Shown here one piece after another: positions 1,885-31,795 of a stretch of DNA of 32,261 nt. The notes beneath the pieces were generated by a model. That model had not been told where the DNA came from. It saw only the letters and a list, made by a program, of their open reading frames with translations, and made no database searches. Made by a program: the position numbers and the translations under genes. The DNA is from Terriglobales bacterium. GTDB taxonomy: Bacteria > Acidobacteriota > Terriglobia > Terriglobales > Acidobacteriaceae. Location of the stretch: contig JASHOU010000117.1 of NCBI GenBank assembly GCA_030038475.1, positions 1-32,261 of the forward strand, given 5' to 3'. Numbering within the stretch: position 1 is the stretch's first letter; each line of letters begins with the position of its first letter.

Positions 1885-1936
1885 ATATCTCGTTTGTTTC
1901 CGCTGGATTTCTCCCACTACATATTGCTTTGGGAAA

Positions 1937-1951
1937 GCGGTTTTTGACCGC
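1937..1951 (-). terminator. Weak hairpin downstream of the M48 protease gene
   Basis: Read on the minus strand, GCGGT and ACCGC pair around a 5-nt A-rich loop and are followed by TTT. It lies about 50 nt past the protease stop in the convergent gap 1847-2002. Short stem, so low confidence. Confidence 0.25.
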
Positions 1952-2002
1952 CCATAACTCGCTGTGGACGGAAGACGCGAGATCAAAAAGCCCGCCGCTG
2001 TT

Positions 2003-7693: not shown

Positions 7694-7720
7694 GGGAGTT
7701 CGCAGGCAGCTCAAAAATGG

Positions 7721-7754
7721 AAAGGCATCCTGGCTTTTCGGGATGCCTTTTTTG
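7721..7754 (+). terminator. Rho-independent terminator of the FecR/DUF6600 gene
   Basis: AAAGGCATCC (7721-7730) and GGATGCCTTT (7741-7750) form a perfect 10-bp stem with a 10-nt loop, followed by TTTGTT. The U-run and position 28 nt past the stop make this a textbook intrinsic terminator. Confidence 0.93.
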
Positions 7755-7814
7755 TTGCAAGAATATGTTTCTGGAGCGGCTCGATCTGAACTCAAGCCAC
7801 CATCAACTTCTGAC

Positions 7815-7843
7815 TGGTCCAAAATTTTGACCATAGTTATGAT
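7815..7843 (+). promoter_or_regulatory. Operator-like palindrome and -10 box of the antitoxin gene
   Basis: TGGTC-C-AAAA / TTTT-GACCA (7815-7833) is a palindrome interrupted by one extra C. It sits immediately before a -10-like TATGAT (7838-7843), in the place of the -35/spacer. Phd/YefM antitoxins repress their own promoter through short palindromes, so this is a plausible autoregulatory site. The -35 (TGGTCC) is poor. Confidence 0.5.
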
Positions 7844-7875
7844 GAAATGACCACAGGAAACAGATAGGGACGCTT

Positions 7876-8974: not shown

Positions 8975-11107
8975 CTACGCTCTCTGCACGCCGCCAAGCT
9001 CTTCCAGCGCTCGAGTGACTTGTGCCGACCACTCCGCTACTTCATCGTCGCGCAGCGTGCGTTCGCTGGATTGGAAATTTGCCCGCAGCAGAATCGAATA
9101 TTTTCCTGCGCCAACTTTTTCGCCGCGGAAAATTTCTACGGGAACAAAACTGCGCAGCTCGACAATGCCGAGCGCGGTGACGGTGTGGCGAATCTTCTCG
9201 AAGGCAACGCCATCGAACACAAAAGAAAAGTCGCGCTCAACGGCAGGGAAGCGCGGCAGCGCCTCATACCGCACCTGCCGCAAATCGTGCTGATAGAGCC
9301 GGTCAAGATAAATCTCGGCGATAAAAACATCCTGCTTCAGCTTGCGCTCGGCCGCCACATCGGGATGAATCTGCCCAAACTGCGCGACGGTTGCGCCATC
9401 CATGATTGCGCGCGCCGCGCGTCCGGGATGGTAATAATCTGCAACCTGCGCGTCGTAGCCAAGCTCCCAATGATCAAAGTGCGCGAGCAACTCCTCAATG
9501 TCGCCCTTCAGATCGAAAAACGAAATGGCACGCGACGCGGCCCCCGGAGCCAGTCCGCGAACCACGTCGGCGTCGATGTTACCGGTTGCGCCCATCGCAA
9601 TGCGTTTCAGCTCCCGCGGCATGTTGACTGATTTTTTTGCCGATTTCGTATCCGCGTCCGCATCTTCAAAGACGTTTCCCGCTTCAAACAGCCGCGCGTT
9701 GTCACTGCCACGATTGAGGTTGTAGGCCAGCATATTCAACATGCCCGGAACCAGCGACGTGCGCATCACCGAAGCCTCGTCGCTCAGCGGGTTCGCGAGT
9801 TCGATAGCGACGGCCGACGAAAAGCGTTGCGCTTCTTCTTTCGAAATAAACGTTAGCGAAACAGTTTCGTTGTAGCCGAGCGCCAGCAGCGAAGATCGCA
9901 TGCGCGCATCTTTCCGCGCATCGGGCAGATCGCGCACTTCACCGGGGTACGACGGAAGCGTATTGGCAAATTTGTCATAACCGTGCAGCCGCGCAAGTTC
10001 TTCAATGATGTCGATCTCGCGCTCAACGTCGAGGCGCCAGCTGGGTATGTGGATGAGATACGAACCTTCGCCACCCGGCAACATGGTGAAGCCGAGGCGC
10101 GTGAGAATACGGTTGATCTCCATCGAGGAGAGTTGTTCGCCGAGAATTCTGCGCACCTCGAGCAAATCCAGCTCCACAGGAGCGAGATCGAGCTTGCGCG
10201 CTACCACATCGATGACATCGCCGACGAGCGTGCCCCCGCCGGAAGCGAGGATCAACTCGGCTACGCGGTTGGTCGAGACGATAGTGGATTCGAAATCGGC
10301 GCCGCGCTCGAAACGGTGCGAGGCATCGGTATGCAACCCGTGGCGCTTCGACATCCGGCGCACCGTGACCGGATCCCACCACGCCGACTCGATCAGAATA
10401 TTCTTTGTGCGCTCGGTGATCATGGTGTCGAAGCCGCCCATGACGCCGGCGAGGCCGACCGGTTTGACGGCATCGGCCACGACAAGATCTTCGGGCGTGA
10501 GTTTGCGATCGACCCCGTCGAGGGTTTTCAGCTTTTCACCTTCGCGCGCTTTGCGGATTACGAGGCGTCGGCCTTCGAGCAGATTGAGATCGAAAACGTG
10601 CGTAGGCTTGCCCGACTCCCAGAGAACGTAGTTGGTGGCATCGACCGCATTGCTGATCGGCCGCTGATCGATCAGTTGCAAGCGCTGGGCGATTTTCGCG
10701 GGCGAAGGCTTGATAGCAGCGCCGCGAATTTCGCGGGCGGTGAAGCGCGGGCACAGATCGGGCTCTTGAATGTCGATGGTGACTTCGGACTTGCCTTGCG
10801 GTGTGGGCAGTTTCGGCTCAATCGGCCGGAGCGGCAAATCGTAGAGCGCGGAAGCTTCACGCGCCACGCCATAGTGATTCATGGCATCGGGACGGTTGGT
10901 GGTGATCTCAAAATCGAATACAATTTCATCCGGGTCGATATCGCGGCCGAGCGGAATCGTAAACTTCATGCCCTCGACGGCGAGCCCGGCCATGGTTAAT
11001 TCTTCGCGAATCTTGGAAGTGGCTTTAACGCGCTCTTCAAAAGGGACGCTCGGCCCCAAATCGGGCAGGTCGACAAAATCGCCTATCCATCCCAGGGAGA
11101 GCTTCAT
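8975..11107 (-). CDS. pheT: Phenylalanyl-tRNA synthetase beta subunit, short form without the OB-fold tRNA-binding domain
   Basis: 710 aa, against about 795 in E. coli. PheT pairs with PheS as an alpha2-beta2 enzyme charging tRNA-Phe in the cytoplasm. The N-terminus (MKLSLGWIGDFVDL, then ELTMAGLAVEGM) runs directly into the segment DEIVFDFEITTNRPDAMNHYGVARE. The EMAP/OB-fold tRNA-binding domain that normally lies between these parts is therefore missing. B3/B4 (editing region; CPRFTAREIRGAAIKPSP, then SNAVDATNYVLWESGKPTHVFD) and B5 are present, followed by the catalytic-like core. The C-terminal FDX-ACB anticodon-binding domain (RFPAVERDFSFVFDG, then FRGEKVGAGKYSILLRANFQ) is intact. The start ATG overlaps the pheS stop by 4 bp (ATGA). 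Last gene of the infC operon, convergent with the Sel1 gene. Confidence 0.97.
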   Translation of the reverse strand: MKLSLGWIGDFVDLPDLGPSVPFEERVKATSKIREELTMAGLAVEGMKFTIPLGRDIDPDEIVFDFEITTNRPDAMNHYGVAREASALYDLPLRPIEPKLPTPQGKSEVTIDIQEPDLCPRFTAREIRGAAIKPSPAKIAQRLQLIDQRPISNAVDATNYVLWESGKPTHVFDLNLLEGRRLVIRKAREGEKLKTLDGVDRKLTPEDLVVADAVKPVGLAGVMGGFDTMITERTKNILIESAWWDPVTVRRMSKRHGLHTDASHRFERGADFESTIVSTNRVAELILASGGGTLVGDVIDVVARKLDLAPVELDLLEVRRILGEQLSSMEINRILTRLGFTMLPGGEGSYLIHIPSWRLDVEREIDIIEELARLHGYDKFANTLPSYPGEVRDLPDARKDARMRSSLLALGYNETVSLTFISKEEAQRFSSAVAIELANPLSDEASVMRTSLVPGMLNMLAYNLNRGSDNARLFEAGNVFEDADADTKSAKKSVNMPRELKRIAMGATGNIDADVVRGLAPGAASRAISFFDLKGDIEELLAHFDHWELGYDAQVADYYHPGRAARAIMDGATVAQFGQIHPDVAAERKLKQDVFIAEIYLDRLYQHDLRQVRYEALPRFPAVERDFSFVFDGVAFEKIRHTVTALGIVELRSFVPVEIFRGEKVGAGKYSILLRANFQSSERTLRDDEVAEWSAQVTRALEELGGVQRA

Positions 11108-12261
11108 CCAAGTTGCTCCAAAAACCTCACGTCACCGTTGAAAAACAGCTGAATATCGTCCACGCCATACTTCAGAATCGCAATGCGCTCGACGCCCATG
11201 CCAAACGCGAATCCTGAAACCTTGGTGGCATCGTAATCGACGAAGCCATAGACATTGGGATCGACCATGCCGCAGCCCAGCAGCTCAATCCATCCGCTGG
11301 CTTTGCAGTTGCGGCAAGGAGCGCCATCGCGCGCGCCTTTGCCATCGCAGAAAATGCAACTGATCTGCGCGTCGGCGCTGGGCTCGGTGAACGGGAAAAA
11401 CGACGGATAGAAACGCGTCTTCACACTCGATCCGAACATGGCTTTCATCGCGTGGTCGAGCGTGCCCTTCAGATCGCAGAAGGTGATGTTGGTATCGACC
11501 GCGAGGCCTTCGATCTGGTGAAAAATGGGCGAGTGCGTCGCGTCGAGCGCGTCATTGCGGTGAACCTTGCCTGGGCACACAACGCGCACCGGCGGCTTCA
11601 TCTTCTGCATGGTGCGAATCTGCACCGGCGAAGTATGGGTGCGCAGCAGCAGCCGATCGCGCAGCGGCTTCGATTCCTGGCCGGCGATGAAGAGCGTATC
11701 CTGCGTGTCGCGCGCGGGATGATTGGGCGGAAAATTCAGCGCCTCGAAGTTATAGAAGTCGGTCTCAATCTCCGGCCCTTCCTCGACTGAGTAGCCGAGA
11801 TTGCGGAAGACTCCGATCATCTCGTGCATCGTGCGAATGACGGGATGCTCGGCGCCGAGCGAGCGGCGGATGCCGGGCAGGGTGATATCAACAGATGGCC
11901 CAAGCGCCATGCTTTTCCACTCCGCCAGCGTATCTATTCGTTTCGACGCAACCTTCTCGGCAGCTCGAAGTTCCAATTCCATCTTTTGAGTTTGCAGAAT
12001 ATTCTCGACTTGATCCTTAAGCTCGTTGAACCTCTTTCCGACCTCCGCCCGCGCTTCTGGAGGGGCCTGCTTCAACCAGAGATCACGTATTTGCGTCAGG
12101 ATTCCGTTTTTGCGTGCCAGCCAGCGATCACGATGAACCTTAAACTGAGTCTGATCGGAGACAGCCACTGCTTCCTCTCTTAGCGCATCGCGAACGTCGG
12201 TGATCGCCTCGTCGAGAGCACGTGTCGAGAAGTCGGTTAGTTTGGAGACAGAATAAGGCAT
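11104..12261 (-). CDS. pheS: Phenylalanyl-tRNA synthetase alpha subunit with zinc-ribbon-like insert
   Basis: 385 aa from the ATG at 12261. The in-frame ATG at 12294 lies inside a palindromic repeat element and would add an unrelated tail, so the inner start is preferred. N-terminal coiled coil (about 15-110) for tRNA binding, then the class II synthetase core. Motif 2 is visible around VVCPGKVHRNDALDATHSPIFHQIEG, motif 3 at GFAFGMGVERIAIL. Between them is a Cys4 insert (Cys302, Cys305, Cys316, Cys319: CIFC...CRNC) followed by GWIELLGCGMV. This zinc-ribbon-like module is shared by many non-proteobacterial PheS proteins and is absent from E. coli PheS. Translationally coupled to pheT. Confidence 0.97.
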   Translation of the reverse strand: MPYSVSKLTDFSTRALDEAITDVRDALREEAVAVSDQTQFKVHRDRWLARKNGILTQIRDLWLKQAPPEARAEVGKRFNELKDQVENILQTQKMELELRAAEKVASKRIDTLAEWKSMALGPSVDITLPGIRRSLGAEHPVIRTMHEMIGVFRNLGYSVEEGPEIETDFYNFEALNFPPNHPARDTQDTLFIAGQESKPLRDRLLLRTHTSPVQIRTMQKMKPPVRVVCPGKVHRNDALDATHSPIFHQIEGLAVDTNITFCDLKGTLDHAMKAMFGSSVKTRFYPSFFPFTEPSADAQISCIFCDGKGARDGAPCRNCKASGWIELLGCGMVDPNVYGFVDYDATKVSGFAFGMGVERIAILKYGVDDIQLFFNGDVRFLEQLG

Positions 12262-21133: not shown

Positions 21134-22201
21134 CTACTTGGAGCGCGCTGCGAGCCAGCCATTGATATGCGGCCAAGTGAGCTTGTTGGCGCCGCTCCCG
21201 GCCATGATTCCGATGTGGCCGCCGGGAACGCTGAAAAGCTCTTTGTCCGGGCTGCTGACCTTCGACATAACCGCCTTCGACTGGCAGGGCGGAGTGATGT
21301 GATCGCCTTCGGCAATTACGGTGAGCAGGTTGGCGCGAATCCGGCTCAGATCGACGCGTTCCCCGCGGATGATCATCTCTCCGCGCATCAGGCGGTCGTT
21401 GCGGTAGAGATCGACGATGAGCTGGCGGAAAACGCCACCGGCGAGCGGAATGTTGTCCGTGACCCAGGTATTCATGGCTTGCCACGCCTCGATGACATGA
21501 GGGTTATCGAGGTTGTCCCAGAGCTTGAGATAGTTGACGACGTAATTCTCCACCGGCTTGAGCGCGCGGGCGCCGTAATCGATCATTTCGCCCGGCATGT
21601 TGCCAAATGCCGCCAAGACCTTGTCGACATCGAAATACCGCTCGTCTGTCCAGCGAGCGAAGGTGATGGCTTGTTTGTCGGAGAAGTCGAGCGGAGCGGT
21701 CAACAAAATCAGATTGCGCAAGCCGTCATCGGGCCGAAGCGCAGAATAAATCGTAGTGAGAATGGCGCCGATGCACCAACCCAACATGCTGAATTCTTCC
21801 ACGCCCGCAATTGACTTTAACTTGCGGATGGCGCGCGGCATATATTCGAGGGTATAGTCGTCGAACTTGAGATTCGTATCCTCAGGGCCGGGAGCTCCCC
21901 AATCGAGCAAGTAAAGATCATAGCCTTGCTTGACCATGAATTCGACAAAGCTGTGACCGGGTCGAAGATCGAGAATGTAAGGGCGGTTCATCAGCGCGAA
22001 CACGAGCAGCAGCGGAACTGGATGGCGTTTTTCTGCGGGAACGACGGGAATGTAGCGATAGACGCGCGCCTTGTTGAGCGCCCAGACCAGCTCTTTGGGA
22101 GTTTGCGCGATCACGGTTCGCGTCGTGACCGCTTTGTTGAACGCCGTTAACTTTTCTACCAAGTCCGTAACCGGGTCGGAGATCATTGCAGCCTCTGGCA
22201 T
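21134..22201 (-). CDS. phaC: Class III polyhydroxyalkanoate synthase, catalytic subunit PhaC
   Basis: 355 aa, the class III length. The enzyme polymerises (R)-3-hydroxyacyl-CoA into PHA on the granule surface. An alpha/beta hydrolase fold with the lipase-like box GWCIG places nucleophile Cys143; Asp300 (EGDHITPP) and His329 (GGHIGIMAG) complete the triad, almost the same numbering as in Allochromatium class III PhaC (149/302/331). Other family blocks are RPYILDLRPGHSFVEFMVKQG-like sequence near residue 73, YDLYLLDWGAPGPED, and WDNLDNPH. Class III synthases need PhaE; the phaE-like gene ends 2 nt before this ATG, so the two are translationally coupled. Preferred substrates are short-chain, but this cannot be read directly. 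Confidence 0.96.
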   Translation of the reverse strand: MPEAAMISDPVTDLVEKLTAFNKAVTTRTVIAQTPKELVWALNKARVYRYIPVVPAEKRHPVPLLLVFALMNRPYILDLRPGHSFVEFMVKQGYDLYLLDWGAPGPEDTNLKFDDYTLEYMPRAIRKLKSIAGVEEFSMLGWCIGAILTTIYSALRPDDGLRNLILLTAPLDFSDKQAITFARWTDERYFDVDKVLAAFGNMPGEMIDYGARALKPVENYVVNYLKLWDNLDNPHVIEAWQAMNTWVTDNIPLAGGVFRQLIVDLYRNDRLMRGEMIIRGERVDLSRIRANLLTVIAEGDHITPPCQSKAVMSKVSSPDKELFSVPGGHIGIMAGSGANKLTWPHINGWLAARSK

Positions 22202-22203
22202 GG

Positions 22204-22638
22204 CTACTTTACTCCTTTCACTTTCCGGCGGTTGCGGCGGACGCGTTCCGCGGGAGCGCGGTTTGCATTGCGGGAGGCGCTGGCGAGGTTGGTGAGTGCT
22301 TTTTCGATACGGTCGAGCGTGGCATCCATGTCATCAAGCAGCATTTCGATATTGGTGACGCGGTCGGCGAGGGCGATAAAATCAGCACGCGAGGGCATAC
22401 TCAACTGCTCCAGCACGCGCAACATCGCCTTCTCAACCGACTCGCGAAATGGAGATGAGGCCGAGAGATAGGTATCAAGCACGGTGCCTGTGCTTTTGGC
22501 GTAGGCGTCGGTGTTCACCGTCTCTACCATCGCCTTTGCCCAGGCATCGAGGTAGGTGTCGCGCACCTCGCGAAAAGCCTCCATAGGATCGGGGGGCCTA
22601 CCGTTAGGCGCTTGCTTTTCATCGTTATTTGTGGCCAT
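22204..22638 (-). CDS. phaE: PhaE-like (or PhaR-type) subunit of the class III/IV PHA synthase
   Basis: 144 aa from the ATG at 22638, with GGAGG 7 nt upstream; upstream codons in this frame are not supported. There is an N-terminal amphipathic stretch (PDPMEAFREVRDTYLDAWAKAMVE given here in part: MEAFREVRDTYLDAWAKA). The C-terminal helix pair has the pattern MPSRADFIALADRVTNIE, then LLDDMDATLDRIEKAL, as at the conserved end of PhaE (PF09712), followed by a very basic tail. PhaE proteins of class III are usually well over 300 aa, so this is a much shortened form, closer in size to class IV PhaR. Position immediately upstream of phaC and the coupling support the assignment. It would activate PhaC and help anchor the complex to the granule. 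Symbol is tentative. Confidence 0.75.
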   Translation of the reverse strand: MATNNDEKQAPNGRPPDPMEAFREVRDTYLDAWAKAMVETVNTDAYAKSTGTVLDTYLSASSPFRESVEKAMLRVLEQLSMPSRADFIALADRVTNIEMLLDDMDATLDRIEKALTNLASASRNANRAPAERVRRNRRKVKGVK

Positions 22639-22695
22639 TTGCAACCCTCCCTGGAAGGCCGCAGGCGGAGACAGCCAAGGAGCTGAGCTCCCCGG

Positions 22696-22747
22696 AAAAA
22701 CACACACAGCCGGCGGCCTGGCTGTCCAGCTCAATCGCAGTATAACA
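22696..22747 (-). promoter_or_regulatory. Extended -10 promoter and leader hairpin upstream of the phaE-like gene
   Basis: On the minus strand TGTTATACT (22747-22739) follows the phasin stop by only a few bases and can act as an extended -10 promoter for phaE-phaC. Downstream in the leader ACAGCC and GGCTGT (22725-22706) form a 6-bp stem followed by GTGTG and TTTTT (22700-22696), an attenuator-like arrangement. Both are inference from sequence; the stem is short. Confidence 0.4.
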
Positions 22748-22753
22748 ACCGGC

Positions 22754-23332
22754 TTATGCGGCAACGATAGTCTTGAAGGGCGTCGAGACGATGTCGAGAA
22801 GCGTTTTTTGCGTCTCAATCAAAGCATCGATGCCAGTCTGGAACACTTCCGCGCCAGGGGTGTTGGCAATCTTGAACTGTTTTTTCGCGGTTTCGCAAGC
22901 CTTCTTGTGCTGCTCGCCATAAGAATCGAGCGCCTTTTTTTGCGCTGCAACACACTGTTCGATGGATTGCTTGAACAGGCCGGTTACACTCTCCGCTACT
23001 TTGAAGGCTGAGCCGCTGCGCTCCTGGGCGAGGCCGGCAACCACATGGCTCTGCTCGACGGCGAGGTCAATGGCGCCCTTTTGCGTCTCGACAAAGCGCT
23101 CAAAAGTCTGGCCGACAAGGTCGAGCGGAAACAATCCGGAAGCTTCCGGGATATGAGTAAAGGCCTTCTTGCAGGCGGCGATGAATTCGGCGTTCTGCTC
23201 GGCTGCGAGATCCAGCGACTTCTTCTGCAGTTCCGCCAGGCGCTCTACGTTTTTCGTGTATGTGGGGATGAAGGCTTCGACGACTTCGTTCTTCTTAGCC
23301 GATCCGTTGGCTGATTTCTTGGGGGTACTCAT
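22754..23332 (-). CDS. Phasin-family granule-associated protein
   Basis: 192 aa, mostly helical, with regularly spaced Gln/Lys/Ala heptads: ERLAELQKKSLDLAAEQNAEF, FVETQKGAIDLAVEQSHVVAGL, CVAAQKKALDSYGEQHKKACE, and GIDALIETQKTLLDIV. These repeated aromatic-acidic amphipathic helices and the ETQK / EQ motifs are the phasin hallmark. No signal peptide; cytoplasmic. Phasins coat PHA granules and control their size and number. The ATG at 23332 has AAGGAG 5 nt upstream. It is the first gene before phaE-phaC and is driven by the near-consensus promoter at 23382-23409, overlapped by a PhaR-type palindrome. Confidence 0.88.
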   Translation of the reverse strand: MSTPKKSANGSAKKNEVVEAFIPTYTKNVERLAELQKKSLDLAAEQNAEFIAACKKAFTHIPEASGLFPLDLVGQTFERFVETQKGAIDLAVEQSHVVAGLAQERSGSAFKVAESVTGLFKQSIEQCVAAQKKALDSYGEQHKKACETAKKQFKIANTPGAEVFQTGIDALIETQKTLLDIVSTPFKTIVAA

Positions 23333-23359
23333 GTGCGCTCCTTATTCAGATAATGGAAT

Positions 23360-23409
23360 ATGCTGCAACGCAGCATGACTTATCATAACCCCTTTTCAAT
23401 GGATGTCAA
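23360..23409 (-). promoter_or_regulatory. Sigma70 promoter of the phasin operon with overlapping CTGC-N3-GCAG palindrome (PhaR-type operator)
   Basis: On the minus strand a perfect -35 TTGACA (23409-23404) is followed after 16 nt by TATGAT (23387-23382), predicting a transcription start near 23375. A perfect palindrome ATGCTGC-AAC-GCAGCAT occupies 23360-23376, exactly at the start point. Its core CTGC-N3-GCAG is the motif described for PhaR of Paracoccus denitrificans (established knowledge). Repression of phasin expression until PHA is present, as with PhaR, is the natural inference. No phaR gene is visible in the window. Confidence 0.75.
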
Positions 23410-23544
23410 GGGAAAAAGATGGGAAAAAACGGCAAAAATGGAAAAGACGAAGCAGATATCCGGGGGCGAGAGATCCGATTTTGTAGATAATGTGTGGCGG
23501 CGCAATTGAAGAGTACGGGTTCAGCGACGGCTGGCACACCGGGA

Positions 23545-23772
23545 TCAGGCGATCATGATCTTGTCGAAGGGGTCGTCAGCGGGCGCGGTAGCCCCGACCT
23601 CGCGAATGTCGTAACGCACTTCGGTCAACCCCTGTTGTCGCAGCACCTCTTGCAGCCTGACGACAAGGGTTTGCAACCTGACGCGATCATCCGCGCGATG
23701 GTGGATATCGCGGCATAGCCGCCGGATTCTTCGATTAATGCGGCGATCGATGGTCTTTATAATGGTCTTCAT
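23545..23772 (-). CDS. Small protein of unknown function (75 aa)
   Basis: A 75-aa frame starting at the ATG at 23772, with GAGGTG 6 nt upstream. The first half is very basic and probably helical (MKTIIKTIDRRINRRIRRLC, then RADDRVRLQTLVVRLQEVLRQQG). The second half is acidic with strand-like segments (TEVRYDIREVGA, then DDPFDKIMIA). No known family recognised. It is co-directional with the phasin operon but lies upstream of that operon's promoter, so it is a separate unit. The opposite strand also holds an open frame here, so coding status is probable, not certain. A role in PHA metabolism is only suggested by position. Confidence 0.5.
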   Translation of the reverse strand: MKTIIKTIDRRINRRIRRLCRDIHHRADDRVRLQTLVVRLQEVLRQQGLTEVRYDIREVGATAPADDPFDKIMIA

Positions 23773-23976
23773 GATCCACCTCATGTAACCCACCTGATCC
23801 CGTAGTCGCCTGAGGTCTGGATTCGAGGAGCCGACTAGGACCGAGGCTCCGAGCTGAACAGCATTAGCTTATCCCGGGGCAAGCTTCACTGGAAATTCAA
23901 AATGAAGATGCACGCAATCGAGAAAACTGTTTCGTCGCGACTGCGGCGAGTGACTAAACACACCAACATGGGTGAT

Positions 23977-23989
23977 GTTTGTCACAAAC
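23977..23989. promoter_or_regulatory. 13-bp perfect palindrome, possible operator
   Basis: GTTTGT-C-ACAAAC is a perfect palindrome about 90 nt upstream of the small gene at 24080. The 307-bp gap 23773-24079 shows no other recognisable element or convincing gene; no consensus promoter could be assigned. Confidence 0.35.
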
Positions 23990-24079
23990 GTTTTGCTGCT
24001 TATCGCACTAGACTAAGTGCTGGGTCGCCCCAGGTTCTGTAAGAATCAACCCTACGCGAATCAGGAAGGAAATTATCTT

Positions 24080-24274
24080 ATGGCTTACGGAAACGCATCG
24101 AATTGCAATTCGACTTCATCTCTGCCGAACCAAAATGCTGCCCGCCCGTCGGTTACGTCCTATGACTCGGGATACGAGCACAGCTTCGATCGCTATGTCG
24201 ATGTCAAACTGCTTTTGCAGGAGGCGGATCAAGAGGGAAGCGATATTCCTGCGACCTTAGCCGCGGCCTCCTGA
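24080..24274 (+). CDS. Small hypothetical protein (64 aa)
   Basis: A 64-aa frame from the ATG at 24080; AGGAAGGAAA upstream could serve as ribosome site but with rather long spacing. The composition is Asn/Ser-rich in the first half (NASNCNSTSSLPNQNAARPS). The second half, YEHSFDRYVDVKLLLQEADQEGSDIP, looks like an amphipathic helix. No family recognised. Ends 16 nt before a perfect hairpin (24291-24315). Coding status moderately supported. Confidence 0.45.
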   Translation: MAYGNASNCNSTSSLPNQNAARPSVTSYDSGYEHSFDRYVDVKLLLQEADQEGSDIPATLAAAS

Positions 24275-24290
24275 GCGCGTCAGCTCGCGA

Positions 24291-24315
24291 TTGAGGTTGT
24301 AAATTGCAACCTCAA
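24291..24315. terminator. Perfect hairpin between convergent small gene and reductase
   Basis: TTGAGGTTG (24291-24299) and CAACCTCAA (24307-24315) pair perfectly around a 7-nt AT-rich loop, in the 53-bp gap between two convergent genes. No U-run on either side; probably a bidirectional terminator. Confidence 0.55.
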
Positions 24316-24327
24316 GAAATCCAGACG

Positions 24328-25158
24328 CTAAAAGTGGAAGCCGCCGCCGCAGATGAGAACCTCGCCCGTCACGTAATCGGAGAGCGGCGAACAGAAGAAC
24401 AGGACCGCGTTTGCAGCCTCCGCCGGCGTGCCGAGGCGGCCCAGTGGGCAGGCGGTTTTCACCGATTCCAACATGGCCGCCTGGACGCCGATCTTAATTG
24501 CATGCCCGCGCATTTCGATGTTCGCTTGCTCGCCGGTGAGAACCTGTGTGAGGCGAGTTTCAATCAAGCCAAAGCCAACCGCATTGACATTGACGTTGTA
24601 GCGGCCCCACTCTTTGGCCAGGGTGCGAGTGAGTCCGAGCACGCCGGCCTTTCCAGATGAGTAGCCGGCTTGGCCGGGATTGCCGTCAGTGCCGGCAATC
24701 GAAGTAATGTTAACGACTTTGCGCATCACCTGCTTGCCGACGGCGATTTCGCGCTTGGCGGTTTCGCGGATGTAGGATGAGGCTGCGCGCAGAACACGGA
24801 AGGGAACGACGAGGTGAATTTCAAGCATGGCCTGGAACTGCTCGTCGGTGGTTTTTTGAATGACATTATCCCAGCTGAAGCCGGCATTGTTGACGATGAT
24901 ATCGAGCGAGCCAAAAGTGTCCAGAGTGGCCTGGACGAGCTTGTCGGGAAAGCCGGGTTGGGTGAGATCGCCGGCGAAAACTTCCACCCGCCGCCCGATG
25001 GATCCCAGCAAACATTTGGTTTCGCGCAGTGCCGCTTCGTCAAGATCGTTGACCATGACCGCGGCGCCACATTCGGCCAGTTTCTCGGCAATGGCCCGAC
25101 CGATGCCGCGGCCAGAACCGGTCACCAGAGCGGTTTTGCCATCCAGCGTAAAAGACAT
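24328..25158 (-). CDS. SDR-family 3-oxoacyl-CoA/ACP reductase (PhaB/FabG-like)
   Basis: 276 aa from the ATG at 25158 (MSFTLDGKTALVTG); codons further upstream run through the operator palindromes. Classical short-chain dehydrogenase: TGSGRGIG (13-20) for NAD(P), NNAG (90-93), catalytic Ser153, Tyr166 and Lys170 (NITSIAG, YSSGK). The C-terminus is the usual GEVLICGGGFHF. The segment between 180 and 250 is longer than in FabG, so the substrate pocket may differ. By context it probably reduces 3-ketoacyl-CoA to (R)-3-hydroxyacyl-CoA for PHA synthesis, or interconverts hydroxyacyl-CoAs during PHA use. It is divergent from the hydratase/acyltransferase gene, and the shared intergenic region carries PhaR-type palindromes. 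Confidence 0.9.
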   Translation of the reverse strand: MSFTLDGKTALVTGSGRGIGRAIAEKLAECGAAVMVNDLDEAALRETKCLLGSIGRRVEVFAGDLTQPGFPDKLVQATLDTFGSLDIIVNNAGFSWDNVIQKTTDEQFQAMLEIHLVVPFRVLRAASSYIRETAKREIAVGKQVMRKVVNITSIAGTDGNPGQAGYSSGKAGVLGLTRTLAKEWGRYNVNVNAVGFGLIETRLTQVLTGEQANIEMRGHAIKIGVQAAMLESVKTACPLGRLGTPAEAANAVLFFCSPLSDYVTGEVLICGGGFHF

Positions 25159-25176
25159 TGCGTTCACCCGTTTTCG

Positions 25177-25213
25177 ATTTCGCTGCAATGCAGCGAAATA
25201 TTGCTGCATTGCA
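25177..25213. promoter_or_regulatory. Double palindromic operator in the divergent reductase / hydratase-acyltransferase promoter region
   Basis: Two overlapping symmetries are seen. First, 25177-25199 is a perfect 23-bp palindrome (arms ATTTCGCTGCA and TGCAGCGAAAT around a single A) with the core CTGC-AAT-GCAG. Second, TGCAATGCAGC (25184-25194) and GCTGCATTGCA (25203-25213) are perfect 11-bp inverted repeats 8 nt apart. The CTGC-N3-GCAG core is the same as at the phasin promoter. This points to one regulator, PhaR-like, controlling all three transcription units. The exact -35/-10 boxes cannot be placed with confidence. Confidence 0.7.
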
Positions 25214-25298
25214 TTAAAACACAATCGGACCAGAAATAACAGTCCCCCAGGGTAATGCATTCCGGTAATCCCATCCCGGGAAACCGCAGGAGAGCTCG

Positions 25299-26705
25299 AT
25301 GAACCGCATCGAAAACCGCACCTTTGACGAATTGCAGATCGGCGAATCCGCCAGCCTCATCCGCACTCTTACCTACAAGGATATCGAACTCTTCGCCATC
25401 ATGTCGGGCGACGTGAATCCCGCCCATGTCGACGAGGAGTTCGCCAAAAGCGATATGTTTCATCACATCATCGCCCACGGCATGTGGGGAGGTGCGCTCA
25501 TTTCCACCGTCCTCGGAACCGAACTGCCCGGCCCTGGCGCCATCTATCTCGCTCAGTCGCTGCGCTTCCGCCACCCCGTAAGCGTCGGCGACACGCTCAC
25601 GGTTACGGTCAGGGTGACCGAGAAATCGGCGGAGAAACGCCGCGTCGTCCTCGATTGTCAGGCCAGCAACCAGACCGGCGACGTGGTTATCAGCGGCACC
25701 GCCGAGGTCATCGCTCCCAGCGAAAAAATCAGCCGCGAGCGCGTGGTCCTGCCGGAGGTAAGGCTGCTCGAGCGTGGCCGCCACTTTCGGCGGCTGATCG
25801 AGGCCACCAAAGGCCGGGCGCCTATGCGGACAGCGGTCGTGCATCCGGTGGACACTGCGTCGCTATTGGCAGCAATCGAAGCGGCTAATGTGGAGCTCAT
25901 CGTTCCCGTCTTCGTCGGCCCTGAAACCAAAATTCGCGCCGCCGCGCGGCAGGCGCAAATCGATCTTTCACCCTATGAAATCCGGAACACGGAACACAGT
26001 CGGGCCGCGGCTGAACTCGCCGTCGCCCTCGCGCGCGACTTAGAAGTGGATGCGGTGTTGCAGGGAAGCCTTCGTTCTGACGAACTCATGCTCATCGTCG
26101 ACACCGAATGCGGGCTGCGCACCGGCTGCCGTATGAGCCATGTCTCGGCGGTCGATGTTCCCAGTTTCCCGCGTCCGCTGTTCATCACCGATGCCGCCGT
26201 CAATATTCGCCCCACGCTCGAAGAGAAACGCGACATCGTTCAAAACGCCATCGAACTCGCCCATGCCCTCGGCATCGTCCGCCCAAAAGTCGCGCTCCTC
26301 TCGGCTCAGCAAGCCATTTCGGCAAAGCTGCCTTCGACTCTCGATGCTGCGGTGCTATGCAAAATGGCGGAGCGCGGCCAAATTCGGGGCGGCGACCTCG
26401 ATGGCCCGCTGCAGTTCGACGTCGCGCTCTCGCCCGAGGCCGCAAAGAGCAAAGGAGTGGTTTCGCCCGTCGCCGGCCATTCGGATATCTTTCTCGTTCC
26501 CGATCTCGAAGCCGGCAGCATCCTCGTCGAGGAACTCCGGCATCTGGCCGAAGCCCAGGTCGGGGGAGTTGTGGTCGGGGCCCGCGTTCCCGTCATCCTC
26601 GCTGGCCGCACCGATAACACCATTACACGGCTCGGCTCCTGCGCTCTGGCCCTGCTGCTGGTTCACCACAAGCACGTGCCGAAGAGCGTCCCTGCGGCGG
26701 TTTGA
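25299..26705 (+). CDS. Bifunctional MaoC-type (R)-hydratase / phosphate acetyl- or butyryltransferase
   Basis: 468 aa. Residues about 1-150 form a MaoC-like hot-dog domain with the (R)-specific enoyl-CoA hydratase signature (SGDVNPAHVDEEFA: Asp38, Asn40, His43) and IAHGMWGGALISTVLG. Residues about 160-468 form a PTA/PTB domain (LLAAIEAANVELIVPVFVGP, then DAVLQGSLRSDELM, GCRMSHVSAVDVP, and VGARVPVILAGRTDN). Such fusions are annotated as bifunctional enoyl-CoA hydratase/phosphate acetyltransferase and are linked to PHA in several bacteria. The first half would make (R)-3-hydroxyacyl-CoA from enoyl-CoA (PhaJ activity); the second exchanges CoA for phosphate on an acyl group, linking the acyl-CoA pool to acyl phosphate and ATP. 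The ATG at 25299 has AGGAG 6-7 nt upstream. Divergent from the reductase gene and sharing its operator. Confidence 0.93.
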   Translation: MNRIENRTFDELQIGESASLIRTLTYKDIELFAIMSGDVNPAHVDEEFAKSDMFHHIIAHGMWGGALISTVLGTELPGPGAIYLAQSLRFRHPVSVGDTLTVTVRVTEKSAEKRRVVLDCQASNQTGDVVISGTAEVIAPSEKISRERVVLPEVRLLERGRHFRRLIEATKGRAPMRTAVVHPVDTASLLAAIEAANVELIVPVFVGPETKIRAAARQAQIDLSPYEIRNTEHSRAAAELAVALARDLEVDAVLQGSLRSDELMLIVDTECGLRTGCRMSHVSAVDVPSFPRPLFITDAAVNIRPTLEEKRDIVQNAIELAHALGIVRPKVALLSAQQAISAKLPSTLDAAVLCKMAERGQIRGGDLDGPLQFDVALSPEAAKSKGVVSPVAGHSDIFLVPDLEAGSILVEELRHLAEAQVGGVVVGARVPVILAGRTDNTITRLGSCALALLLVHHKHVPKSVPAAV

Positions 26706-26717
26706 TCTGCTCATGGC

Positions 26718-29390
26718 CTACATGTGGTACCCGCCATTGACGTTCAGTTCCTGGCCGGTAATGTAGTCGGCCTCGGCCGCGAGGAAACCGGCTGCCTTCG
26801 CTACTTCTTCTGGCGCCGCGAACCGGCCCAGTGGAATTTTTGCCTTGATCTGAGCCGAGATTTCCTCGGGAATGGCATCGACCATCTCGGTTGAAGTAAA
26901 GCCGGGCGCGATCGCGTTGGCGGTAATGTTGAACTTCGCCATCTCCAGCGCGAGGGTTTTGGTGAAGGCGATGATGCCGCCTTTGCTGGCGGAGTAATTG
27001 GCCTGCCCAAACGCACCCATTTGTCCGACCACCGAACTGATGTTGATGATGCGCCCGAATCGCTGGTTGATCATGGCGGGCAAGGCGGCGCTGGTGCAAT
27101 AGAAAGTGCCGTTCAGGTTAACGTTGATCACTTCCGCCCAATCGTCTTCCGTCATTTTGCGCATCGTGCGGTCGCGCGTAATGCCGGCGTTATTGACGAG
27201 GATGTCGAGCCGCTGCCACTTATCCAGCACCTCTTTCACAATGCGCTGGGCCTCGCCTTTTTTCGAGACGTCCCCCTGAATGGTGATGCACTCGACACCG
27301 AGTGCGCGAATCTCTGCGGCAGCGCTCTCGGCATGGACCGAATCCGATCTGTAGTCGAGCGCCACATTGGCGCCGCGCCGCGCCAGTTCGAGGGCGATGG
27401 CGCGTCCAATGCCTCGTCCCGCGCCGGTGACCAGTGCGACTTTCCCTTGCAGCGAACTTGCTCCGTTGGTGCCATTTCCGTTGTTTTTCATAAGCGTATT
27501 ATTCTCCTGGGAGTTGCAAAGTACTACTGACGGGTCCACCCGCAGAACCGTGTAACCGCCCACAGCACCTGCGCCGAATCCGGGTGCGAACACACGCAGA
27601 GGCTGGTTGATTCTTCCGTTGCGTACGGCGTCGTGAATGGCGAGGAGGATACTCGCGGAGGAAGTGTTCCCGACGCGTTGAATGTTGAAATAGAGCTGGT
27701 CGGCCCCCACACCCGCGGCCTGCGCCAGATCGAGCACCATGTTCTTGTTGGCCTGGTGCGGGACGACCAGATCAATCGTATCCATGAGCGCGCCTGGGGC
27801 GCCATCGGGACGCGGCAGTGCTTTCAGCTCACCGATCATTTGCACCAAATAGCGTTTGGCCAAAGTCTTCACTTCCGGTCCATAGACGGTGATGTTGTTG
27901 TCAAACTCGGGATTCGGCCAGATGATGGAGTTCACCTCAGACCACGGGCCGCTCGCATAAGTCTGGAAGACTTCAATATCGGGCGCAGCGCCAGCGGGAG
28001 CGGGACCAACCACGACGGCGGCCGCGCCATCCCCAAAAATCATGCGGGAGGTGCGCACCGTGCCGATTTTGTCAGAGAACTTTTCCGCACACACGACTAT
28101 GATCGGCCGCTCGATTTCCTGCAGAAGACGCACGGCCTCGGCCAAACCGTAGGGCATGCCCGCGCAGGCGGCTACGATGTCGCAGGAGGAATGCGTCTGT
28201 TGCAGTCCCAATTCGCCCGATAGCCAGGTGGCGACGGAGGGAATGAGAGTGGTGCTGGTACAACTGCAGAACAACACCGCTCCGATTTCGGAGGGCTTGC
28301 GGCCGGACTTGGCTAATGCCGCGCGCACCGCCAGCAACGACATATCTTCCAGACTCAACTCACTGTAGGCGCGGCTTTCGATTCCCGTCTTGGCGGAAAC
28401 ATCTTCAACCGTCATGCGCGACCAGCAGTAGGCGTGATTGCTGATGAGGTCTAGATTAGTGCAGGGAATCTCGCCTTCATAAACGGCAATGGCTTCGATG
28501 CGTGGCATAACCTTAAAGCGATCGCGCACCACTACGGGAGGGTAGGGCTTCTCTGGTGCGCTCAAAGCCAAGGTCGGAGGCCGATGATGCTCTGGCCGAT
28601 GGTTGCCATGTCCGTTTTGCCGTATGCGCCGCAGAAACTGCAGCACGTCGGAGCTGCGGGGGTGGAAGACGACGACATAATCGTCGTCGCCGAGCTGGCC
28701 CACCTCGGCGGCGGTGCTCGTCTTTGGGTCCCACGGGTATTGATTGTGGAGAATCATCACTTGGCGCATGAGCGCTTCAAGTTCCGGGACGGTGTGGACG
28801 CAATCGATTACGTCGTCGTAGTCGTAGCCGGGATAATCGCGATCATAACTCAGCAGACGGTAGGTGAGATTTTTGGGATCGGCTAGGATCTCGTCAACGG
28901 TGGGTCTGAGCGCTCGAAACTCTCCACCAGAGCCTTGCTTGTTCCGAAGCACGTTCAGCAAAATGCGGAAGCTCTTGTCTTCCGTCTCCTCATCCCACAT
29001 CGGCGGCAGTTTGAGGTAGCCCGCTTCAATGGCCGCTGTCGGCCCGGCCGAGTCGCGCGGTTTGTACATCCCCAGAAAGATATCGTTGCGGTGCCGAGGC
29101 AAATCGCCCCAGCGCGTCGGCCGTTTCTCGTACATCGTTAGCACGTAGCGCTGCGCCCAGAACAGGTTGAGCGCGAGGTCGCGACAAATTTCGTAGCGGT
29201 TGCGATAATCCCCAGCTTGCACCCGCGCTACGATCTCGGCTTCGGTGGGCGCCTTCTCGCCGAAGTCACGCCGGATGACGGCGTTGAACTGGTTGATGTC
29301 CTTGAAGACCGAAAAATCCAATTCCGGAAAGAAATTGCAGGGAAACACCATCCGGCCGTAACGGTTTATGACGAACGGTTTGAGCAACAT
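26718..29390 (-). CDS. Fusion: unknown N-terminal domain + KAS III (FabH-like) + FabG 3-oxoacyl reductase
   Basis: 890 aa in one uninterrupted frame. Residues 1 to about 290 are an unrecognised domain (FPCNFFPELDFSVFKDINQF, then MYEKRPTRWGDLPRHR and VVVFHPRSSDVLQFLRRIRQ). Residues about 295-622 are a KAS III condensing enzyme with Cys409 (DIVAACAGMPYGL), His545 (VPHQANKN) and Asn575 (GNTSSAS), the complete FabH triad. A 12-residue linker (SVVLCNSQENNT) joins a complete FabG module starting at Met634: TGAGRGIG, NNAG, Ser786, Tyr799, Lys803. The linker looks like translated intergenic DNA; it still contains CAGGAG 12 nt before Met634, so separate FabG may also be made. The fused enzyme could condense an acyl-CoA with malonyl-CoA and reduce the ketone. 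Follows the BCCP gene by 30 bp. Confidence 0.85.
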   Translation of the reverse strand: MLLKPFVINRYGRMVFPCNFFPELDFSVFKDINQFNAVIRRDFGEKAPTEAEIVARVQAGDYRNRYEICRDLALNLFWAQRYVLTMYEKRPTRWGDLPRHRNDIFLGMYKPRDSAGPTAAIEAGYLKLPPMWDEETEDKSFRILLNVLRNKQGSGGEFRALRPTVDEILADPKNLTYRLLSYDRDYPGYDYDDVIDCVHTVPELEALMRQVMILHNQYPWDPKTSTAAEVGQLGDDDYVVVFHPRSSDVLQFLRRIRQNGHGNHRPEHHRPPTLALSAPEKPYPPVVVRDRFKVMPRIEAIAVYEGEIPCTNLDLISNHAYCWSRMTVEDVSAKTGIESRAYSELSLEDMSLLAVRAALAKSGRKPSEIGAVLFCSCTSTTLIPSVATWLSGELGLQQTHSSCDIVAACAGMPYGLAEAVRLLQEIERPIIVVCAEKFSDKIGTVRTSRMIFGDGAAAVVVGPAPAGAAPDIEVFQTYASGPWSEVNSIIWPNPEFDNNITVYGPEVKTLAKRYLVQMIGELKALPRPDGAPGALMDTIDLVVPHQANKNMVLDLAQAAGVGADQLYFNIQRVGNTSSASILLAIHDAVRNGRINQPLRVFAPGFGAGAVGGYTVLRVDPSVVLCNSQENNTLMKNNGNGTNGASSLQGKVALVTGAGRGIGRAIALELARRGANVALDYRSDSVHAESAAAEIRALGVECITIQGDVSKKGEAQRIVKEVLDKWQRLDILVNNAGITRDRTMRKMTEDDWAEVINVNLNGTFYCTSAALPAMINQRFGRIINISSVVGQMGAFGQANYSASKGGIIAFTKTLALEMAKFNITANAIAPGFTSTEMVDAIPEEISAQIKAKIPLGRFAAPEEVAKAAGFLAAEADYITGQELNVNGGYHM

Positions 29391-29420
29391 AACTTCTTCC
29401 TTCCACTTCTGTGCTGACGG

Positions 29421-29795
29421 TTATTCGAATTCAACCAGAATCTGGTTGAGTTTGACTGCTTCTCCCGGCACTACCTTGACCGATTTCACCTTTCCCGCAA
29501 TCGGAGCCGTAACATTGGTTTCCATCTTCATAGCTTCAAGAACCACGAGCAAATCGTCAGGCTGCAGCTGTTTTCCCGGTTGCACGCAGACTCGCACTAC
29601 GATTCCGGCCACGGGACTGCGGCAAACCTTCGACTCGTCGGCGTCACCCGTTGTGGAAGAGCCGTGTCGAGGCGCGGTCGGGACAACGACAGACTGAATC
29701 CGCGGCGCGGGGCCCTCCTCGCCAGATTGGTCCTCGCCTTCGACATCGACCTCAACTTCATATGCCTTCCCGCCAATGACGATCTGAATCTTCAA
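29421..29795 (-). CDS. Biotin carboxyl carrier protein of an acyl-CoA carboxylase/decarboxylase
   Basis: 124 aa from a TTG at 29795, which has GGAGG 8 nt upstream and overlaps the upstream stop as TTGA. The beta-strand start KIQIVIGGKAYEVEVDVEGE is followed by a Ser/Gly/Pro linker (about 25-50) and a complete biotinyl domain. The biotinylated residue is Lys90 in EAMKME, and the protein ends QILVEFE. It carries CO2 on biotin between a biotin carboxylase (not in the window) and the carboxyltransferase encoded two genes upstream. The KVCRSPVAGIVVRVCVQPGK pattern is the type found in propionyl-/methylmalonyl-CoA enzymes. Middle of a minus-strand operon: carboxyltransferase, OadG-like protein, BCCP, KAS III-FabG. 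Confidence 0.93.
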   Translation of the reverse strand: MKIQIVIGGKAYEVEVDVEGEDQSGEEGPAPRIQSVVVPTAPRHGSSTTGDADESKVCRSPVAGIVVRVCVQPGKQLQPDDLLVVLEAMKMETNVTAPIAGKVKSVKVVPGEAVKLNQILVEFE

Positions 29796-30187
29796 GGCTC
29801 GCGCCTCCGCTGGGAGAAGTTGCGCGAAGCCTGAACCACAACCCGTCCGTGTTGCGCCCACGGATTGGCACTGCTGTTGGGTGTGCGCAAGGTCTTCACC
29901 GAGCGAATGCGAACCTTCTTGCCGAGCAAAGCGGCGATGGTTTCGCTGATCGTTGCCAAGGTTTCGGGTGTAATTTCCTCAGCTAAAGCAGGGTTGATCG
30001 CGGCAGGGGTCGGTGCATTGGCGCTCTGCTTGACAGCGCTCACCTCTGCGGAGAGTGCGTCGATTTGCTGCTGAAGCTCTAACTTGAGTTCGTCACATCG
30101 TTGCCCGATCATCCGTCGCGAGCCGATAAACACCGCGACAAAACTGGCAATCGCTAGAGCTGCAATCAAGATGTAGACGATTGTCAT
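29792..30187 (-). CDS. OadG-like single-pass membrane protein linked to the carboxyltransferase
   Basis: 131 aa. One N-terminal membrane helix (MTIVYILIAALAIASFVAVFIG) is followed by a cytoplasmic coiled-coil-like segment (LKLELQQQIDALSAEVSAVK). An Ala/Pro linker comes next, then a small domain (EEITPETLATISETIAALLGKKVRIRSVKTL) ending in NPWAQHGRVVVQASRNF. The plan and this ending match the OadG/methylmalonyl-CoA decarboxylase delta-type proteins that anchor biotin-dependent carboxyltransferases to the membrane. It lies 9 nt after the carboxyltransferase stop and overlaps the BCCP start by 4 bp, so the three genes are one unit. The ion-pumping beta subunit (OadB/MmdB) is not adjacent. Function by homology only. 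Confidence 0.8.
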   Translation of the reverse strand: MTIVYILIAALAIASFVAVFIGSRRMIGQRCDELKLELQQQIDALSAEVSAVKQSANAPTPAAINPALAEEITPETLATISETIAALLGKKVRIRSVKTLRTPNSSANPWAQHGRVVVQASRNFSQRRREP

Positions 30188-30196
30188 CGCAAGACC

Positions 30197-31795
30197 CTAA
30201 AGCGGAATCAATCCGTGTTTCTTCGGCGGACGAAGTTCCCGCTTGGAACTCGAAGCTGCGATGGCCTGAGCCAAATACTTCGCAGTTTCGGCGGGCTCGA
30301 TCACGTCGTCTACCAGGCGCCTTCCCGCCGCCACATAGGGATTCGCGAAGGTGTTTCGATAACGCTCGATCAGCTCTTTGCGCCGGTTCGACTTGTCTTC
30401 GGCCGCTTCGATCTCATGGCGGAAGACAATTTCCGCGGCGCCTTCGGCTCCCATCACGGCAATTTCGGCGGTGGGCCAGGCGACCACGCGGTCCGCGCCG
30501 AGGGCTTTCGAACACATGGCGATGTAAGCGCCGCCGTAGGCTTTGCGTAGCACGACGGTTATTTTTGGAACTGTCGCCGCCGAGTAAGCAAACAACATTT
30601 TCGCGCCGTGACGGATAATGCCTCCGTACTCCTGCTCGATGCCAGGCAGGAAGCCCGGCGTATCGACAAAAGTCACAAGCGGAGTATTGAAGGCATTGCA
30701 GAAGCGGACGAAGCGGGAGACCTTATCCGAGGCGTCAATATCCAGGACCCCGGCCAACACCTTCGGCTGATTGGCCACGATGCCCACTACGCGCCCCTGG
30801 ATACGGCCGAAGCCAATCACAACATTGGCAGCGAACCCGGGCTGGATTTCGAAAAAATCCTGCTGATCGAGCACACGCGCGATCACATCGCGCACGTCGT
30901 AGGCGACCTTTGGCTCTACGGGAACGGTGCGATTAAGCTCCAGATCGGTTTCGAGCGCGGCGCTGAACGGCAGCCGTGGAGCTTCTTCGAGGTTGTTGGA
31001 CGGCAGGAAACTCAGCAGCCTGCGGCACAGTGACAGTGCACCAGCGTCGTTTTCAGCGATCAGGTGTACCACGCCCGATCGATTCATTTGCGCGGCGGGA
31101 CCGCCCAATTCTTCTGATGTCACGACTTCGCCGGTGACCTGCTTGATGACGGAGGGCCCGGTGATGAACATGCGCCCGCACTTGGTTTGAATGATGAAAT
31201 CGGTCAACGCCGGACTGTAAGCCGCGCCGCCGGCGCAAGGGCCACAAATGATGGAAATCTGGGGAACTGTGCCGGAGAGCAGAGTATTGTTGTAAAACAC
31301 GCTGGCGTACCCGGCCAGGCTGTCGATTCCTTCTTGTACCCGTGCACCGCCGGAATCGTTGATGAAGACAAAGGGGCTGCCGGTTTTGAGCGATCCCTGC
31401 ATCATTTCTGTGATTTTGGCGCAGTGCACCTCGCCGGCGGCGCCGCCGGCAACGGTGAAGTCTTGGCTCGCCAGGTGGACCAACCGTCCACCGACGGTCG
31501 CGCAGCCCGTGACGACGCCATCGGCGGGCAGATCCTTTTCTGCCATATCAAAATAGGTGGAGCGATGTTTCGCGAAGAGGCCTATCTCCTGAAAACTCCC
31601 CGGGTCGACGAGATTTTCGACGCGTTCGCGCGCCGTAAGCTTGCCCTCCGCCTTATGCTTCTCGATTCGTTTCTTGCCGCCTCCCTGTTGGATCTGGGAG
31701 CGCTGGCGGCGAAGCAACGAGATCTTTTCCTCGATCGTGGTCTTCTGTTCCCTGACTAGATCCAACGCCGGGGTTGGAAGCGGATTTGCGGCCAT
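30197..31795 (-). CDS. Acyl-CoA carboxyltransferase (propionyl-CoA carboxylase beta / methylmalonyl-CoA decarboxylase alpha type)
   Basis: 532 aa, normal length for PccB/MmdA. The ATG at 31795 has AGGAGG 7 nt upstream. Two crotonase-fold halves: the N-terminal with GKLTARERVENLVDPGSF, then FINDSGGARVQEGIDSLAGY and the oxyanion/CoA region GPCAGGAAYSPALTDF; the C-terminal with VDTPGFLPGIEQEYGGIIRHGAK and KAYGGAYIAMCSKALGADR, ending GNIPL-like as HGLIPL. It transfers the carboxyl group between carboxybiotin and an acyl-CoA (propionyl- or acetyl-CoA), yielding methylmalonyl- or malonyl-CoA, or the reverse as a decarboxylase. Substrate choice depends on residues I cannot evaluate by eye. First gene of the operon with OadG-like protein, BCCP and KAS III-FabG. 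Confidence 0.95.
   Translation of the reverse strand: MAANPLPTPALDLVREQKTTIEEKISLLRRQRSQIQQGGGKKRIEKHKAEGKLTARERVENLVDPGSFQEIGLFAKHRSTYFDMAEKDLPADGVVTGCATVGGRLVHLASQDFTVAGGAAGEVHCAKITEMMQGSLKTGSPFVFINDSGGARVQEGIDSLAGYASVFYNNTLLSGTVPQISIICGPCAGGAAYSPALTDFIIQTKCGRMFITGPSVIKQVTGEVVTSEELGGPAAQMNRSGVVHLIAENDAGALSLCRRLLSFLPSNNLEEAPRLPFSAALETDLELNRTVPVEPKVAYDVRDVIARVLDQQDFFEIQPGFAANVVIGFGRIQGRVVGIVANQPKVLAGVLDIDASDKVSRFVRFCNAFNTPLVTFVDTPGFLPGIEQEYGGIIRHGAKMLFAYSAATVPKITVVLRKAYGGAYIAMCSKALGADRVVAWPTAEIAVMGAEGAAEIVFRHEIEAAEDKSNRRKELIERYRNTFANPYVAAGRRLVDDVIEPAETAKYLAQAIAASSSKRELRPPKKHGLIPL

Follow-up and report, generated by a model that had tools for sequence, protein, structure and literature searches.

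Textbook synthesis of poly(3-hydroxybutyrate) (PHB) begins with a thiolase reaction that is reversible and runs uphill. That reaction has been put at about +7 kcal/mol, versus an estimated −0.9 for the reaction of malonyl-coenzyme A (CoA), and the same report describes NphT7, a FabH homologue, as having no arginine needed for the binding of acyl carrier protein (ACP) and proposes an AGGSR motif for CoA recognition (PMC5432608). An engineered NphT7-PhbB-PhbC route to PHB has been reported in sugarcane (PMC10530661), and FabH combined with PhaC in engineered Escherichia coli provided a case of a 3-ketoacyl-ACP synthase III (KAS III) feeding a polyhydroxyalkanoate (PHA) synthase (Nomura 2004, cited in PMC8231600). 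A large survey of PhaC sequences lists five acidobacterial and 15 rokubacterial class III PhaCs, and a search of the main text of that survey returned no word starting with "malonyl" (PMC8312272). In the open-licence literature, with subscription papers outside the scope, we found no natural KAS III-based pha operon; engineered NphT7-PHB routes are already known, and a natural KAS III-PHA operon appears to be new. The candidate described here lies in a stretch of 32,261 nt (the window) from a Terriglobales bacterium (assembly GCA_030038475.1, contig JASHOU010000117.1), the genome of which belongs to the Acidobacteriota, comprises 216 contigs and 4.46 Mb and is 98.4% complete. Judged from its sequence, the gene block in the last 11 kb of the window is probably a pha operon in which the beta-ketothiolase step has been replaced, giving a natural malonyl-CoA-driven route to PHA precursors.

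The KAS III-FabG fusion and the core of the block

On the minus strand, the last 11 kb of the window hold genes for a carboxyltransferase, a small membrane protein, a biotin carrier, a fusion protein of 890 aa, a short-chain dehydrogenase/reductase (SDR), a phasin, a PhaR/PhaE-like subunit and PhaC; a gene for a PhaJ-Pta fusion lies on the plus strand between those of the SDR and the 890-aa fusion. The first-pass annotation of this DNA had listed phaC, a phaE-like gene, a phasin, two reductases, a PhaJ/PTA fusion, a KAS III and a carboxyltransferase set within 11 kb, with no beta-ketothiolase; all of these genes were present where it had placed them, and we found no thiolase within the block. 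The ~290-aa N-terminal domain of the fusion was absent from that description.

The 890-aa fusion (26718–29390, minus strand) consists of this N-terminal domain (residues 1–290; 28521–29390, minus strand) followed by KAS III and FabG parts, which Pfam placed at about residues 292–622 and 645–890, respectively. In a structural model of residues 1–625 the KAS part adopted the FabH fold, with a best Z of 38.0 to FabH structures, and its catalytic triad was Cys409-His545-Asn575. Equivalents of Cys112, His244 and Asn274 of E. coli FabH were found in all 40 aligned KAS sequences, a tight family in which the other 39 were 52–84% identical to the window protein over some 625 residues. The equivalent of Arg249, the ACP-docking residue of E. 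coli FabH, was present in E. coli FabH and in the window genome's own FabH and in none of the 40 sequences; that of Lys214 was found in two of the 40, and that of Arg151, a CoA contact, in all 40. By these residues the KAS is NphT7-like in combining the absence of the ACP-docking arginine with an intact triad. All 40 sequences also carried the motif WPNPEFDN. The KAS part scored 127 bits against the FabH equivalog TIGR00747, below the cut-off of 292, and a separate canonical FabH elsewhere in the genome scored 383 bits, so that the KAS cannot be the only FabH there. Another locus of the same genome (L109, contig C58) has an ORF at 1498–2562 (minus strand) whose 355-aa product gave a KAS III-like match (68 bits) and which adjoins a FAD-monooxygenase-like ORF; the two may together form a type III polyketide synthase pair.

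The N-terminal domain matched no Pfam family. Its AlphaFold model was fairly confident (pLDDT 84.6), and a fold search of the PDB gave no match, with a best Foldseek E of 0.3 and a best Z of 4.3 among 135 chains, a result that does not by itself establish a new fold. The domain may have a part in shaping the CoA site or in partner binding. The FabG half passed the FabG model TIGR01830 (302.9 bits versus a cut-off of 297.75).

Upstream of the fusion, the MmdA-like carboxyltransferase (30197–31795, minus strand; Carboxyl_trans, 615 bits) is a proposed acetyl/propionyl-CoA carboxyltransferase; its closest NCBIfam model was MmdA (TIGR01117), which it matched at 750 bits, below the cut-off of 999. 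The biotin carrier protein (29421–29861, minus strand) matched Biotin_lipoyl with 52.8 bits and had the motif EAMKMET. Between the two lies the small protein (29792–30187, minus strand), which has one N-terminal hydrophobic helix (hydropathy peak of 2.9 at residue 3) and matched no Pfam or NCBIfam family. Its homologues occurred in eight other loci (L007, L008, L010, L013, L014, L015, L020 and L023), its position is like that of MmdD or OadG, and it may anchor the carboxylase. Among seven frames of this protein (window, L007, L008, L010, L014, L020 and L023), six had a hydrophobic stretch and all seven a C-terminal GRxxxQxSx[ND].

PhaC (21134–22201, minus strand; 355 aa) is class III-like: TIGR01836 was the best among the PhaC models at 328 bits, short of its cut-off of 365, PhaC_N gave 27 bits, and the cysteine nucleophile lies in GWCIG (GxCxG at residue 141). 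A genome-wide search with PF07167 and TIGR01836 returned the window PhaC as the sole match. The gene of the 144-aa PhaR/PhaE-like subunit (22204–22638, minus strand) starts, by our reading, with the ATG at 22638, the listed ORF beginning earlier. The subunit's only NCBIfam match was PhaR of Bacillus megaterium (TIGR02132; 38 bits versus a cut-off of 148), and its homologue adjoins PhaC in relatives. Compared with the class III PhaC-PhaE pattern, the window has a short PhaC with the Cys box and a small partner that matches PhaR weakly.

Alternation with a thiolase and recurrence across phyla

Among 399 genomes sampled from the class of the window, 11 had a window-type PhaC, defined by an E of 1e-60 or better. 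The neighbourhood held the KAS-FabG and carboxyltransferase in three (G000, G147, G630), a BktB-like thiolase in six (G304, G717, G427, G550, G590, G650; loci L129, L145–L147, L149, L150), neither in two (G473 and G626, both on short contigs) and both in none, the last count covering the fetched neighbourhoods together with a genome-wide KAS search, among the thiolase-type genomes, of G304 alone. FabG adjoined the thiolase in five of the six thiolase-type loci; that of G717 was weaker (194 bits) and more distant. The thiolase of G304, the one classified, passed the cut-off of the BktB subfamily NF006552 (642 versus 565 bits). When KAS loci from a contig scan were added, a thiolase lay near none of the 13 KAS-type loci and near six of the eight remaining loci with a window-type PhaC (Fisher P 5e-4, the rows being related); for the class sample alone the Fisher P was 0.06. 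In a FabG tree, 25 pha- or KAS-linked FabGs split from 18 generic ones (17 loci, L090–L106, and E. coli) with support of 98/95, and the fusion FabGs grouped with five thiolase-linked FabGs and those of L054 and L019 (100/97); the FabG of L145 was the one left out among the six thiolase-type loci.

Presence of the KAS also followed that of PhaC. Among 41 near genomes, full KAS-FabG was found in three (best E 0), and the same three had a full-length PhaC; in the other 38 the best KAS-FabG E ranged from 1e-40 to 1e-69, the listed matches being to the FabG half, and a fourth genome had a weak PhaC match of 56 positions at a contig edge only. Among 297 genomes of the phylum, 41 had some PhaC match and 26 a strong one, with an E no higher than 2e-37, the remaining 15 being weak; the N-terminal domain occurred in three, all among the 26 (P 6e-4). 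The 23 strong-PhaC genomes without the KAS indicated that it is one of several precursor supplies. PhaC matches, several of the full PhaC_N type, were found in all 26 KAS genomes that we selected from the KAS carriers.

The contig scan yielded 118 relatives, and the analysis covered the 80 best loci; the counts for these rest on bit thresholds, stop-to-stop ORFs, group labels from record titles and fetched stretches that reached no more than 9 kb to either side and in many cases less. No thiolase lay near the KAS in the fetched stretches of any of the 80 loci. The 16 acidobacterial loci, many on short contigs, all had the fusion, which rules out an assembly artefact; 12 of them also had PhaC and 11 the carboxyltransferase, and in the nine of at least 15 kb each of the two was present in eight. 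Much of the gene set is therefore kept in relatives, so that a chance cluster is ruled out and the lack of conservation that the first-pass annotation named as a ground for abandoning its proposal was not found. An unfused KAS occurs in G269 (L136), an acidobacterium from a different family, where it has FabG, PhaC and a PhaJ-like gene nearby. The acidobacterial locus L019 has a separate FabG in addition to the KAS-FabG fusion (6964–7869 and 8983–11634), with no carboxyltransferase within 9 kb.

Outside the Acidobacteria, the N-terminal domain and KAS III make up a stand-alone protein of ~620 aa, found in Actinobacteria, Rokubacteria, Gammaproteobacteria and metagenome-assembled genomes (MAGs) of a deltaproteobacterium and of Dormibacteraeota. 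Of 42 actinobacterial loci, 31 had a single-chain acyl-CoA carboxylase (ACC) near the KAS, 31 a separate FabG and 19 PhaC. This stand-alone KAS adjoins FabG and a single-chain carboxylase about 1,850 aa long in Geodermatophilus, Blastococcus and Pseudonocardia; in the two carboxylases scanned with Pfam (L066 and L051), biotin carboxylase, carrier, ACC central region and carboxyltransferase were found in one chain. In many Geodermatophilaceae the KAS lies near a PhaC homologue, and the one scanned (L045) had a full PhaC_N domain. The single deltaproteobacterial locus had the order FabG, PhaE-like, PhaC, KAS, ACC. Because these carboxylase and PhaC types differ from the acidobacterial ones, the association is one of functions and hardly the inheritance of one operon. 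In five Rokubacteria (L112–L116), PhaC lay apart from the KAS, in stretches with FabG, PhaE-like and PhaJ-like genes and no thiolase. A search of plasmids with the KAS gave no match at E 1e-60.

The other genes of the block varied more among these loci. The phasin-like protein (22754–23332, minus strand), so named from its position and conservation beside PhaC, matched no Pfam or NCBIfam family; its homologue adjoins PhaE/PhaC in the loci of the KAS type and in most of those with a thiolase, and was not seen in L147. The second reductase is an SDR (24328–25260, minus strand; adh_short_C2, 174 bits), the likely start of which is the Met at residue 35, at about 25158, and its homologue is present also in the thiolase-type loci L129, L145, L149 and L150. 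In the 1-kb gap between these two genes there is a readable, putative frame of 64 codons (24080–24274, plus strand) beginning MAYGNASNCNS. PhaJ-Pta (25299–26705, plus strand), a fusion of a MaoC-like enoyl-CoA hydratase and a phosphate acyltransferase, scored 674 bits against NF006045 (cut-off of 282). It is an optional member: apart from the window, two of the 16 acidobacterial loci had it, several of the 16 being short; the second entry to PHA that had been ascribed to its PhaJ half is thus possible, and is no conserved part of the system.

The proposed route and competing explanations

In the proposed route, for which we infer the substrates, the use of CoA over ACP and the reaction direction, malonyl-CoA would come from the carboxyltransferase and the biotin carrier acting together with a biotin carboxylase that is presumably encoded elsewhere in the genome. 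The KAS III part would convert acetyl-CoA and malonyl-CoA to acetoacetyl-CoA and CO2, the fused FabG would reduce acetoacetyl-CoA to (R)-3-hydroxybutyryl-CoA, and polymerisation of the product on phasin-coated granules would fall to PhaC and its subunit. Decarboxylation, paid for with ATP through the carboxylation, would render the condensation effectively irreversible, and the fusion may pass acetoacetyl-CoA directly to the reductase. The genomic comparisons support this putative pathway well. The thiolase swap, the recurrence outside the Acidobacteria, the co-occurrence of KAS with PhaC and the loss of the ACP-docking arginine all strengthened the sequence of carboxylation, KAS III, FabG and PhaC that the first-pass annotation had suggested; its term "thiolase-independent" suits the block and does not suit the organism. 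Five full-length thiolases encoded elsewhere in the genome could supply acetoacetyl-CoA. None of them reached the PhaA or BktB cut-offs (best 450 bits versus 565 for BktB), and no relative of FabG or the window SDR lay within the 3.1–3.8 kb fetched around each, so that no dedicated phaA-phaB operon has been found so far outside the block.

Besides these thiolases, several results count against the proposed route. The FabG half fell below the cut-off of the acetoacetyl-CoA reductase model TIGR01829 (276 versus 302 bits), and the FabG beside the thiolase of L129 passed neither that cut-off nor the FabG one. None of the 40 KAS sequences had an equivalent of E. coli FabH Trp32, a CoA contact, and none had AGGSR, the NphT7 CoA motif. 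The 16 acidobacterial loci showed no biotin carboxylase, and no genome-wide search for it was made. In the PhaC tree, of related rows, the KAS label needed one to three changes over the bootstrap range, and one single swap may still explain the alternation within the Acidobacteria. Carboxylase, separate FabG and PhaC were all below the thresholds in the fetched stretches of all 17 rokubacterial and all three gammaproteobacterial loci, several on short contigs, and in six of the 42 actinobacterial loci. Finally, the single-chain ACC of Saccharopolyspora was reported as essential and serving fatty acid synthesis (PMC6491548).

The last two results would fit a role of the carboxylase, KAS III and FabG in fatty-acid priming on ACP substrates, with the genes placed beside pha genes through common acetyl-CoA and (R)-3-hydroxyacyl units and the monomers coming from PhaJ or other thiolases. 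The FabH fold of the KAS, the FabG equivalog score of the FabG half and the rokubacterial KAS genes without pha neighbours all speak for this explanation, which we nevertheless regard as unlikely: the genome has its separate canonical FabH, the KAS is far below the fabH cut-off, the ACP-docking arginine is missing throughout the family, and the KAS tracks PhaC and alternates with the BktB-like thiolase. It is rather improbable, too, that the KAS makes longer or odd-chain 3-ketoacyl-CoA for a copolymer, from propionyl-CoA or C4–C8 starters and malonyl-CoA, with acetoacetyl-CoA supplied by a thiolase elsewhere. Such a role would agree with the thiolases in the genome, with Ile (26 sequences), Met (12) or Leu (2) at the gate position that is Phe87 in E. 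coli FabH, and with the best PDB match of the KAS by sequence, Vibrio FabH2, which was crystallised with octanoyl-CoA. Against it stand the preference of class III PhaCs for short monomers and the BktB-like thiolase with FabG that replaces the absent module, a weak point, as BktB is known for C4–C6 products. In favour of such a role, the related ACC type was reported to carboxylate propionyl-CoA too (PMC6491548).

A methylmalonyl-CoA or malonyl-CoA decarboxylase, made up of the carboxyltransferase, small membrane protein and carrier and lying beside pha genes by chance, would account for MmdA as the closest model and for a gene order, with a one-helix small protein, that resembles mmdA-D-C. 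The MmdA score is well under its cut-off, and the pump subunit OAD_beta (PF03977), without which such a decarboxylase would not work, was found in none of the six KAS genomes, the window genome included, versus two of 14 controls; its absence from all six makes a carboxylase likelier than a decarboxylase, and we rejected a decarboxylase pump and consider this explanation highly improbable.

Returning to the replacement of the thiolase step, we lean, with less assurance than for the block itself, towards a wider claim: that several phyla have a natural PHA pathway driven by ATP and dependent on malonyl-CoA, that an undescribed KAS III family with its own N-terminal domain has displaced the PHA thiolase, and that this domain may rebuild the CoA or malonyl-CoA site where residues of FabH, Trp32 and Arg249 among them, were lost. 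If so, evolution would have replaced the thiolase within pha operons as engineers did with NphT7, joining condensation and reduction in one chain, and related KASs would be paired with carboxylases in other phyla. Cells with such a route could build up carbon reserves even while acetyl-CoA is in short supply. These producers, which may be a source of ready-made enzymes for bioplastic work, would be overlooked by any genome survey that takes phaA as a requirement.

Comparison with described systems

NphT7 of Streptomyces CL190 resembles the window KAS as a FabH homologue with Cys-His-Asn and no ACP-docking arginine, and the likeness of the routes lies in the proposed path from malonyl-CoA to acetoacetyl-CoA and on to a reductase and PHA synthase. 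It differs in belonging to a mevalonate cluster, its use for PHA being a result of engineering, whereas the window KAS has an extra domain of ~290 aa, no AGGSR, a fused FabG and a place in a natural pha operon with carboxylase genes. The system of Nomura 2004 differs in using an ordinary FabH, described as converting 3-hydroxyacyl-ACP to 3-hydroxyacyl-CoA (PMC8231600). SACE_4237, the homomeric multidomain acyl-CoA carboxylase of Saccharopolyspora erythraea, shares the architecture of the carboxylase beside the actinobacterial stand-alone KAS; a term search of the main text of that report found no mention of PHB, polyhydroxy, KASIII, ketoacyl or operon (PMC6491548). The acidobacterial thiolase-FabG-PhaC loci share with the window the same PhaE/R-like and PhaC core and, in the five on the tree, the same FabG clade, and differ in that a thiolase takes the place of the carboxyltransferase, carrier and KAS III.

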